From the IMG/VR virus record IMGVR_UViG_3300031707_000005, positions 1-64,000 of that record: a stretch of 64,000 bases of DNA. One strand, given 5' to 3'. This document shows, piece after piece, positions 10,205 through 14,186 of the stretch (its first letter is position 1; each line of letters begins with the position of its first letter). A model generated the notes under the pieces. It was not told the DNA's origin. It worked only from the letters and a program-made list of their open reading frames with translations, and made no database searches. A program made the position numbers and the translations under genes. This stretch comes from a virus.

Positions 10205-11914
10205 TCAGGGAGCCGGAGGTTGGTAACGACCACCAACGGACAAAGGACTACCTCCGCCACAACTTCCTGACCAAGCAATAAGTTCAGAGCCTGTCCAGGC
10301 AGTAGCAGACGAATCAACAAGCGTTGAGGGTGGAGCGGAAGTGTCAGTAAGCATTAAATCTGTAACGCGGTCATAAAACGAAACGGTAGTTATACCAGGG
10401 CATGATCCTGTGGACTTAAGAAAGAAAATACGACGTCCATCATCAGCATTCCTACTTGGAACAAAACTTGGGACGCCAGAAGGAACTGGATTAGCGGAAA
10501 ATGTATCGGTAGAAACAGTGTATTTCAGTGCGTCTTTAGAGAAACCACCCCATATATCGATGTTACCAGAGTCATCAATGAAAGCATTCGTATATCCGGT
10601 AGTCGGAAGTGATGAATTGATATTCTTACATCCGGAGAGCGAACAAGAGGCATCAGTCCACGAACGAGCAACCGGGTCGAACACGGAACCATCTGCCAAA
10701 TAACCAGTCAAATCTTGACCACCAAAAACGAAGAGCTTCTCCGTAGACGGAATTGATACCATCGCGAAATCAGATCGGGCCTGAGGAGCCGTACCGGATG
10801 TTGCCACGAAAGAAAAGAAATCGGTTCCTCCAGCACTAGCAAACTCAAGCGTACCGATCAGAGTTCCACTCGAATCAGTGAAACCGCCGAATACATAAAT
10901 ACCACCGGTATAAGTGGTTACAGCTTTATGTCCATATCGGGCGTTCTTGAGCGGAGACGACTTCCCCCAAGTGTCACGAGATGGATCGTATACGTAAACC
11001 GCACTAGTTGGATTAGAACTAGAGTCAAGACCACCAATGGTCGTGAAGAGTTTTTCAGAAAAAACAGCAGCATGTCCAGTTGTCGGAGGAGGCGCACCGA
11101 CAATAGAAAGCGACTGCCAAGCAGGTGTCGGAACGCCACTGATGCATGTTCGTCCATGAACGGCTTTATAACCACATGCACCGCAGTTCATCGGATCAGT
11201 ATTGAGATCCACACAAGACCCGCCGCAAACAGTATCGGTACACGAACCGACTGGACCGGAGTCAGACCCGGAGTCGATACCGGAGTCAGACCCGGGATTA
11301 CCGACGGAACCTGAGTCAACGATAGGATCAGAACCGGAGTCCACAGTCGAACCAAAACCTGAGTCAGTACCTGAATTCACACCAGAGTCATGACCATTCA
11401 TTTGACCATCAGAGTCGTTATTCACGTCAAAAGATGAGAGTTCGTCAACATTAACATTGGCATCGACACAGTTTCCAGCACTACACGTTTGAGTGTCTGT
11501 ACATTCAGAAATTTTTCCAATACATAGGTCATCGAAAAGAAGTGGCAAGAGGAGTGCCTCACCGGATCGATATCCGCTAATCGCTCGCACACGAGCAATT
11601 TCAATACCAGATGAATCGAGTGCAGTTGCCGTAATCTCATAAACACGAGTCACATCGTCATTTTGAGGAACGAGAGAAAACTGCAGAGGCCAACGATATT
11701 TATCCGAGTCGATGATCATCTTCCGATCAAAACGGTTCTCCCACTCCGTGTTCTTACCGTGACCAGAACGAACGCGAATTTCTACACTTTGTGTTTGTGT
11801 ACGAGTATCTAGTTGCGCATCGATTTGTACCATAACCTGAGTAGAAGAGGTGTTTTTAACGGAACATGCAATGATGAAAAATGAAAGAATAAATGTGAAT
11901 ACTTGAAAAATCAT
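10205..11914 (-). CDS. Kelch-repeat lipoprotein of myxobacterial type
   Basis: A 569-residue protein. Residues 1-17 form a lipoprotein signal peptide ending FIIAC (lipobox, Cys17). An N-terminal beta domain follows to ~140, then a Cys patch (CSAGNC), a Ser/Gly/Asp linker with repeated DSG units (~165-220), a Cys-rich module (CTDTVCGGSC ... NCGACG) and five or so Kelch blades with GHxAV and IYVFGG signatures to the C-terminus. This combination is typical of Myxococcota surface lipoproteins. In the phage it would sit on the infected cell's membrane after export. It overlaps the upstream TPR gene by ATGA, so they are co-translated. Likely acquired from a host. Function in infection unknown. Confidence 0.85.
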   Translation of the reverse strand: MIFQVFTFILSFFIIACSVKNTSSTQVMVQIDAQLDTRTQTQSVEIRVRSGHGKNTEWENRFDRKMIIDSDKYRWPLQFSLVPQNDDVTRVYEITATALDSSGIEIARVRAISGYRSGEALLLPLLFDDLCIGKISECTDTQTCSAGNCVDANVNVDELSSFDVNNDSDGQMNGHDSGVNSGTDSGFGSTVDSGSDPIVDSGSVGNPGSDSGIDSGSDSGPVGSCTDTVCGGSCVDLNTDPMNCGACGYKAVHGRTCISGVPTPAWQSLSIVGAPPPTTGHAAVFSEKLFTTIGGLDSSSNPTSAVYVYDPSRDTWGKSSPLKNARYGHKAVTTYTGGIYVFGGFTDSSGTLIGTLEFASAGGTDFFSFVATSGTAPQARSDFAMVSIPSTEKLFVFGGQDLTGYLADGSVFDPVARSWTDASCSLSGCKNINSSLPTTGYTNAFIDDSGNIDIWGGFSKDALKYTVSTDTFSANPVPSGVPSFVPSRNADDGRRIFFLKSTGSCPGITTVSFYDRVTDLMLTDTSAPPSTLVDSSATAWTGSELIAWSGSCGGGSPLSVGGRYQPPAP

Positions 11915-13226: not shown

Positions 13227-13496
13227 ATGTTCCCGAAATTCCAAAAGAAAGCTCCATCGGAAAAACCGACAGAACAGGCCAGCGAAGAAGACTACGAGTT
13301 ATTCCATACACTGTGTACCGTTTGGTCAGATTGTACGTACGCCCAACAGTATGCAGATGACCAGGACCGTAGTGTCGCACCACTTGCAGCTCGCGAAATA
13401 CGAAAAGCTATTGAAGAATCCATATATGCTGATATGGAAATAGGACTAGATCATATAGAATTACTCAGACGAATTGAATCATCTGAGCCCATCTAG
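13227..13496 (+). CDS. Small acidic hypothetical protein
   Basis: An 89-residue plus-strand frame starting ATG 13227, with a Lys/Glu-rich N-terminus (KFQKKAPSEKPTEQASEEDYE) and a helical C-terminus (REIRKAIEESIYADMEIG). Its 3' end overlaps the convergent release-factor gene by 18 bases. There is no clear ribosome binding site, which lowers confidence. A coding-like amino acid pattern and divergence from gene 12585-13160 support it. No family recognised. Confidence 0.5.
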   Translation: MFPKFQKKAPSEKPTEQASEEDYELFHTLCTVWSDCTYAQQYADDQDRSVAPLAAREIRKAIEESIYADMEIGLDHIELLRRIESSEPI

Positions 13497-14160
13497 ATCA
13501 CCACGCAAAAACGCCTTTACGGTTATTTGACGTCCAGTCCGATGGTCGGTAACCTGATCTCGTTGTACGGCTATAGTGCGAATTTTATCGCCTCGCATAC
13601 CTGAACCTACCTGATCTTTTCGATCTTGAGCTCGACCGTCAAAAGCCGCCGACTTGATTCGCTCCTGAAGTCTGGACCGAAGAATTTGTAAAGCTTCTTC
13701 TTTATTTTGATGTTGCGAACGTTCTGATTCACAACGAACCATAAGACCAGTAGGTAAATATGTCGCCTGAACAGCCGACTCAGTTTTATTCCGGTGTTGT
13801 CCGCCCGCCCCGGAGCCTCTACAAGTCTTAATTTCCACGTCTCGCATATCGAGCCGCATCTGTTGTTCCGTGACTTCCGGAAGTACGGCAACAGTCACCG
13901 TGGACGTATGGATTCGACCCCGCTTTTCATTTGGGGGCTGGCGCTGCCAACGGTGGCCACCTGATTCTCGAGAAAAGAGCTGGGCAACGTCTTTACCGCT
14001 TGCACGGAAGACAAGGATGCCGGGGCGCTCATCTAAAATAGATAGGTCAAAGAAACCTCCGAGCTCCCATCCGGCAATAAACCGCGAATTGTTCTAGAAC
14101 CAGGGATTTGGCGTCGTCGCCACCCTCTGCGCCGCGTATCTCAACTATGACAGTAGACAT
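13479..14160 (-). CDS. prf-like: Peptide-chain release factor, joined by programmed +1 frameshift
   Basis: Translation starts at ATG 14160 behind GGAAGGAG. Frame 0 runs 37 codons (EIRGAEGGDDA, as in RF1 domain 2) to CTT-TGA at 14052-14047. Reading resumes one base later at GAC and runs 189 codons to TGA 13479, giving a 226-residue protein. It has GRIHTSTVTVAVLPE and the catalytic GSGAGGQH motif (GGQ at ~119-121), plus GSGMRGDKIRT and VTDHR, closer to RF1 than RF2. Domain 1 is absent. The codon-reading tripeptide position holds PPN rather than PxT or SPF. Homology is continuous across the junction, which argues against a random frameshift mutation. Confidence 0.85.
14046..14061 (-). promoter_or_regulatory. 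prfB-type programmed +1 frameshift site
   Basis: On the minus strand the order is CGGAGG, then TTT, then CTT TGA C: a Shine-Dalgarno-like hexamer three bases before a CTT codon and a UGA followed by C. This is the arrangement of the bacterial prfB site (AGGGGG, TAT, CTT TGA C). There, slow UGA termination allows the Leu tRNA to slip, so factor scarcity raises production. The same self-regulation is inferred here. Confidence 0.85.
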
Positions 14161-14186
14161 ATTTGACTCCTTCCTAACAATTATAC

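Follow-up and report, generated by a model that had tools for sequence, protein, structure and literature searches.

Is a phage release-factor gene that runs into a stop codon after 37 codons a decaying gene, or is the stop a control element, and what would it then report on? The question is raised by the window analysed here, a stretch of 64,000 nucleotides (positions 1 to 64,000) of the 84,623-base virus record IMGVR_UViG_3300031707_000005. A sequence-only reading had proposed a phage release-factor gene split into a 37-codon frame and a 189-codon frame offset by +1, with CGGAGG, three bases and CTT TGA C at the junction. We found both frames on the minus strand, which that reading had left unstated, at 14160-13479, and read the junction directly at 14061-14047 with the C that follows. 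The assignment to a phage also held: open reading frames of the virus record match a major head protein, a portal protein, a clamp loader and helicases, and the product of the split gene carries the PCRF and RF-1 domains. The features of the locus are as follows.

14167..14175, minus strand: ribosome binding site AGGAAGGAG, 5' of the ATG, graded good
14047..14160, minus strand: frame A, starting with the ATG at 14160, 37 codons MSTVIVEIRGAEGGDDAKSLVLEQFAVYCRMGARRFL and then TGA; encodes the beginning of class-I release factor domain 2
14056..14061, minus strand: Shine-Dalgarno (SD)-like stimulator CGGAGG, kept in relatives beyond codon usage
14053..14055, minus strand: 3-nt spacer TTT
14050..14052, minus strand: slippery codon CTT, in the P site before the shift; CTT in 105/105 relatives
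14047..14049, minus strand: gate stop codon TGA, followed by C
13479..14048, minus strand: frame B (+1), 189 codons from GAC at 14048, with a final TGA
13929..13937, minus strand: PPN, at the place of the PxT anticodon tripeptide in RF1
13797..13805, minus strand: GGQ peptidyl-tRNA hydrolysis motif, in invariant columns

If CTTT is decoded as a single leucine, the two frames give a 226-aa product whose predicted junction-spanning peptide is RRFLDLSILDER. Frame B encodes the larger part of domain 2, the GGQ-bearing domain 3, and domain 4. The match to RF1, for which solved structures were compared, is uninterrupted over residues 4-224 including the junction, as the claim of continuous homology had it. 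This layout is unique in the window: no other such stop occurs in the 64 kb on either strand, the one other loose match having the wrong spacing. An independent contig (L002) is identical to the window gene at 682/682 nt, which makes a sequencing error unlikely. Elsewhere in the window, positions 10205-11914 (minus strand) encode a Cys-rich protein that combines Asp/Ser repeats with Kelch-like ones; Myxococcota commonly have proteins of this style, which may hint at the host.

The product belongs to the class-I release factor superfamily, with a GGQ domain and a PCRF decoding domain; in Pfam, RF-1 (PF00472) scores 107 bits and PCRF (PF03462, C-terminal part) 58 bits, both above cut-off. Profile scores are 223 bits for RF1, 147 bits for RF2 and 89 bits for PrfH. 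It is nevertheless no RF1 (prfA) equivalog, the score of 223 bits standing against a cut-off of 400, and the RF1 model is covered at positions 105-333 of 347 only, domain 1 being absent. Nor is it an RF2 (prfB) protein, since it has PPN instead of SPF and RF1 scores higher than RF2, or a PrfH, for which the cut-off is 166.65 bits. The decoding tripeptide is PPT in most relatives. An RF1-like profile combined with a PxT-type tripeptide predicts that the product reads UAA and UAG. A relative interrupted by an in-frame TGA, folded with that TGA read as Trp, is predicted with a mean pLDDT of 94 and superimposes on ribosome-bound RF1 with a Foldseek TM of 0.92-0.93, against 0.69 for PrfH. We infer that the window gene yields an active factor for UAA and UAG. 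The suggestion of the sequence-only reading that the phage could adjust termination at UGA codons thus sits poorly with the PPN/PPT tripeptide and the RF1-like profile.

We then assembled relatives of the gene. A first scan of viral contigs yielded 52, nearly all of which align over 3n+1 bases, most with a CTT-stop at the same place; three further scans and the huge-phage records extended these to a non-redundant set drawn from viral contigs and bacterial genomes. In this set, 105 genes have a +1 shift and 68 one in-frame stop, 7 contain a pair of in-frame TGAs, and 13 run without interruption; 3 genes with an apparent shift of another kind and 24 unresolved loci were excluded. Clustering at 70% identity gives 132 clusters (78 shift, 44 readthrough-type and 10 uninterrupted). 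Among the 105 shift genes, the gate stop is TGA in 80, TAG in 22 and TAA in 3, and it is followed by C in 77. CTT is invariant as the slippery codon, yet it accounts for 11.5% of Leu codons in the rest of these genes. Of the Arg codons at -4/-3, 142/152 are CGG or AGG, a share that is 28% at other places. The duplex with the anti-SD has an energy of -8.3 kcal/mol, whereas synonymous shuffles give -3.4 kcal/mol. Together, the invariance of CTT, the Arg codon bias and the SD energy indicate selection on the nucleotides and not on the protein alone. Gene by gene, the synonymous SD test reaches p<=0.05 in only 57/105, and a clear SD is missing in some relatives (for example L017, L019 and L071). 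Downstream RNA structure, tested in single shift-type genes, was not significant. The CUU-stop with coding continued in +1, the SD-like element at 3-nt spacing and their conservation characterize a prfB-type +1 site. The comparison of homologous genes that had been called for therefore came out in favour of a maintained site, the relatives keeping both the CTT-stop and the SD-like hexamer. A pseudogene or a sequencing error has nothing to recommend it except the broken frame itself; with the interruption recurring at a small set of positions in more than 170 non-redundant genes, frames intact on both sides, and with an identical independent contig, we regard the chance of either as negligible and rejected both.

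The 68 genes with one in-frame stop (67 TGA, 1 TAG) carry no shift. At site I, 51/54 of the in-frame stops fall on a conserved Trp column of RF1, the very column on which the slippery Leu of the shift genes lies (98/98). Judged from that column, Trp is probably inserted at the in-frame UGA. UGA is not a general Trp codon in these genes, since each contains a single stop beside 141 TGG codons in the set. A second gate position about 10 codons downstream is used by both modes, with a shift in L045, L259 and L275 and an in-frame stop in L027, L036 and L043. In one subclade, a covarying stem starts 7 nt after the UGA (A6 columns 11-28 with 55-72; for example L184:5106-5180): its pairing holds in 88% of cells but in no more than 45% with the partner strand slid along, and two-sided changes occur in 10/16 pairs. 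By its sequence pattern, this stem looks like a candidate readthrough stimulator. No known RNA family or SECIS was matched at the readthrough site, only tRNAs. With an in-frame stop, a standard code and a putative 3' stimulator, the stem having been tested in one subclade, these genes have the marks of programmed stop readthrough. A special tRNA-Trp with a four-base-pair stem was considered as a readthrough helper and set aside, the pattern not being clear. Two in-frame TGAs occur in L026, L032, L117, L136, L138, L161 and L236, which include phage records of 735 kb and 635 kb; DnaB and RecA matches in the double-TGA phage records have no internal stops.

An in-frame stop would be no gate at all if these phages had reassigned their stop codons. 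Some phages do recode stops, and RF1 can occur in code-4 phages (PMC10746230). However, the 19 DnaB, 20 RecA and 3 PolA matches from 25 records (23 IMG/VR records and two huge phages) contain no internal stops, so that the in-frame-type phages tested use the standard code. No UGA-suppressor tRNA was found near any locus, and CTA tRNAs numbered three only. The gene is moreover present in cultured bacteria of standard code (Variovorax, Gemmobacter and Rhodovibrio), and reassignment is unable to explain a +1 change of frame. Reassignment is accordingly very unlikely, and we rejected it for the phages tested. Plain ORF coverage was too noisy to serve as a reassignment test, partly because tRNA arrays surround the gene. 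A tRNA lies within 3 kb of 31/67 viral shift loci and 32/51 viral readthrough loci. Dense tRNA arrays enclose the release-factor gene in L149:1-10663 (29 tRNAs in 10.7 kb), L154 (33 tRNAs), L197, L193 and L057. The CTA-anticodon tRNAs, possible UAG suppressors, are found in TGA-gated phages (L201:8851-8926, L208:9040-9114 and L117:4815-4886), and tmRNA genes lie near the phage release factor in L194:7018-7357 and L201:6194-6650.

Mapped on a tree, the mode of bypass changes at least 11 times, also when the site columns are left out, and the identity of the gate stop changes at least 17 to 19 times among the shift genes, without the decoding tripeptide changing along with it. The tree is a quick, unrooted one, and gains are indistinguishable from losses because the root was not inferred. 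We looked for a match between the gate stop (TGA, TAG or TAA) and the decoding motif and found no association; the one residue that strongly separates TGA genes from TAG/TAA genes is, trivially, the codon made by the shift itself. Both modes use the same codon column in most genes; since they also interconvert on the tree, what is conserved is a stop codon to be bypassed.

We therefore consider it likely that the gene encodes an RF1-like factor lacking domain 1, that its full-length product is made by programmed +1 frameshifting, and that the gate senses slow termination; that the family builds the same gate by shift or by readthrough is what points to such a sensor. A ribosome would arrive at CTT TGA with CGGAGG three bases upstream. 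A fast release factor would then produce a dead-end peptide of 37 residues. Were termination slow, pairing at the SD-like element and the loose hold on tRNA-Leu could promote a slip of one base, from CUU to UUU, and the 226-residue factor would be made. A UGA gate would sense the host RF2, and a UAG gate RF1 together with, probably, the product itself. We infer that slippage occurs and responds to release-factor activity. The sensing of host termination is supported, and the gate most likely reports host termination, through RF2 when the stop is UGA.

Does the product also switch off its own synthesis? If it were relaxed or omnipotent, it would read its gate stop and so limit its own production in true self-feedback, as RF2 does in prfB. 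Two observations would suit this: the shifts in gate identity, which no change of the decoding motif accompanies, are expected if the factor reads all stops, and TAG and TAA gates directly suit an RF1-like product. Yet PxT and RF1-like surroundings, present in nearly all members, predict recognition of UAA and UAG only, and UGA is found at 80/105 shift gates and 67/68 readthrough gates. As a general account, self-feedback is thus a tentative possibility, which we hold to be doubtful. Where the gate is UAG or UAA, a closed loop as in prfB is plausible. With a UGA gate it is not obvious, because the decoding motif predicts no UGA recognition; the window gene, with a UGA gate and the PxT-type tripeptide PPN, is of this kind. 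A specificity broader than the motif suggests would close the loop.

The gate could alternatively hold the factor at a level that is low, constant and insensitive to release-factor activity. Readthrough and frameshifting are both low-output by default, and no conserved gene neighbour indicates a response. But many synonymous routes lead to lower expression, and still a release-factor gene, of all genes, keeps a stop through at least 11 mechanism switches; TAA, which is read by both RF1 and RF2, is also rare among the gates (3/105). A constant level is improbable on these grounds, more so than self-feedback, and we retain the gate as a sensor of slow termination.

The gate resembles that of prfB (RF2) in its SD-like hexamer, 3-nt spacer, CUU-stop-C, +1 direction and location within a release-factor gene. 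Unlike in prfB, the product is an RF1-like factor without domain 1 that comes on top of the normal ones, the gates include TAG, and relatives swap the shift for in-frame readthrough. The site also differs in lying within domain 2, and is therefore not the inherited prfB site. A 2025 survey found TAG absent from 8,164 prfB motifs and prfA without programmed frameshift (PMC12421855). A 2016 review calls both the in-frame UGA version for RF2 and its UAG counterpart for RF1 unknown, and cites a giant-virus gene as the exception (PMC5009743). This is the eRF1 of Mimivirus and Megavirus (R726/mg280), which requires readthrough and a +1 frameshift at CUU UAG C / CUU UAA C (PMC3521657). It is likewise a virus-encoded class-I release factor that needs recoding, but it is of eukaryotic/archaeal type, occurs in amoeba viruses and combines both events in one gene; its unrelated fold family makes the likeness convergent. 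Bacterial RF1 (prfA) is the closest in sequence (223 bits) and in fold, the differences being that domain 1 is absent here and that prfA is unshifted. PrfH (RF-H) is also a class-I factor without domain 1, but it matches much more weakly, has no known recoding, and its rtcB-like conserved neighbour has no counterpart here. A report on huge-phage genomes lists RF1/RF2 with no mention of a frameshift, gate or interruption (PMC7162821), and L140, a Lak-type factor, passes this site unbroken in the alignment.

Chromosomes of Myxococcota carry the closest relatives from cells: Minicystis rosea (61% identity), Archangium, Pyxidicoccus and several Nannocystis, the gene surroundings in Nannocystis being common to strains. 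In Minicystis, two Nannocystis, Variovorax, Achromobacter and Gemmobacter, the gene is extra to two full-length release factors. No conserved operon partner such as rtcB was found across the loci, and no rtcB-like neighbour lies directly upstream. RefSeq divides a readthrough-type gene on a Variovorax plasmid (L288:1474-2178, NZ_LR594667.1) into a hypothetical protein and a release-factor-like one, and three other Variovorax plasmids have the same split labels; annotation breaks up or omits such genes. Two records labelled Acinetobacter phage (L286 and L287, CAKLQH020000004/13) hold ordinary prfA-hemK and prfB loci and look bacterial-chromosomal. The bacterial copies, the loss of domain 1, the position of the site in domain 2 and the large readthrough branch were all absent from the sequence-only reading.

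Searches of the open-access literature brought up no account of frameshifted phage release factors or of this family, though an earlier one may exist in subscription journals. To our knowledge, control of a release factor by frameshifting is known only for bacterial prfB, nearly always with UGA, and for a single eRF1, that of giant viruses. The present RF1-like family, a separate one, reaches the same logic elsewhere in the protein, with UAG gates and in-frame readthrough, and it offers a natural comparison of frameshifting and readthrough as interchangeable sensors. That some 170 distinct phage and bacterial relatives keep the gate by one of two tricks suggests that the gene senses the cell's termination. 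On balance, we lean slightly towards a wider reading, in which these genes form a widespread third-release-factor family of phages and bacteria with a termination-sensing gate, of which only the stop is conserved while the means of bypass is repeatedly swapped, and by which phages would detect a loss of host termination and supply a host-independent substitute factor. The family also provides a lead on the reason why phages carry release factors.
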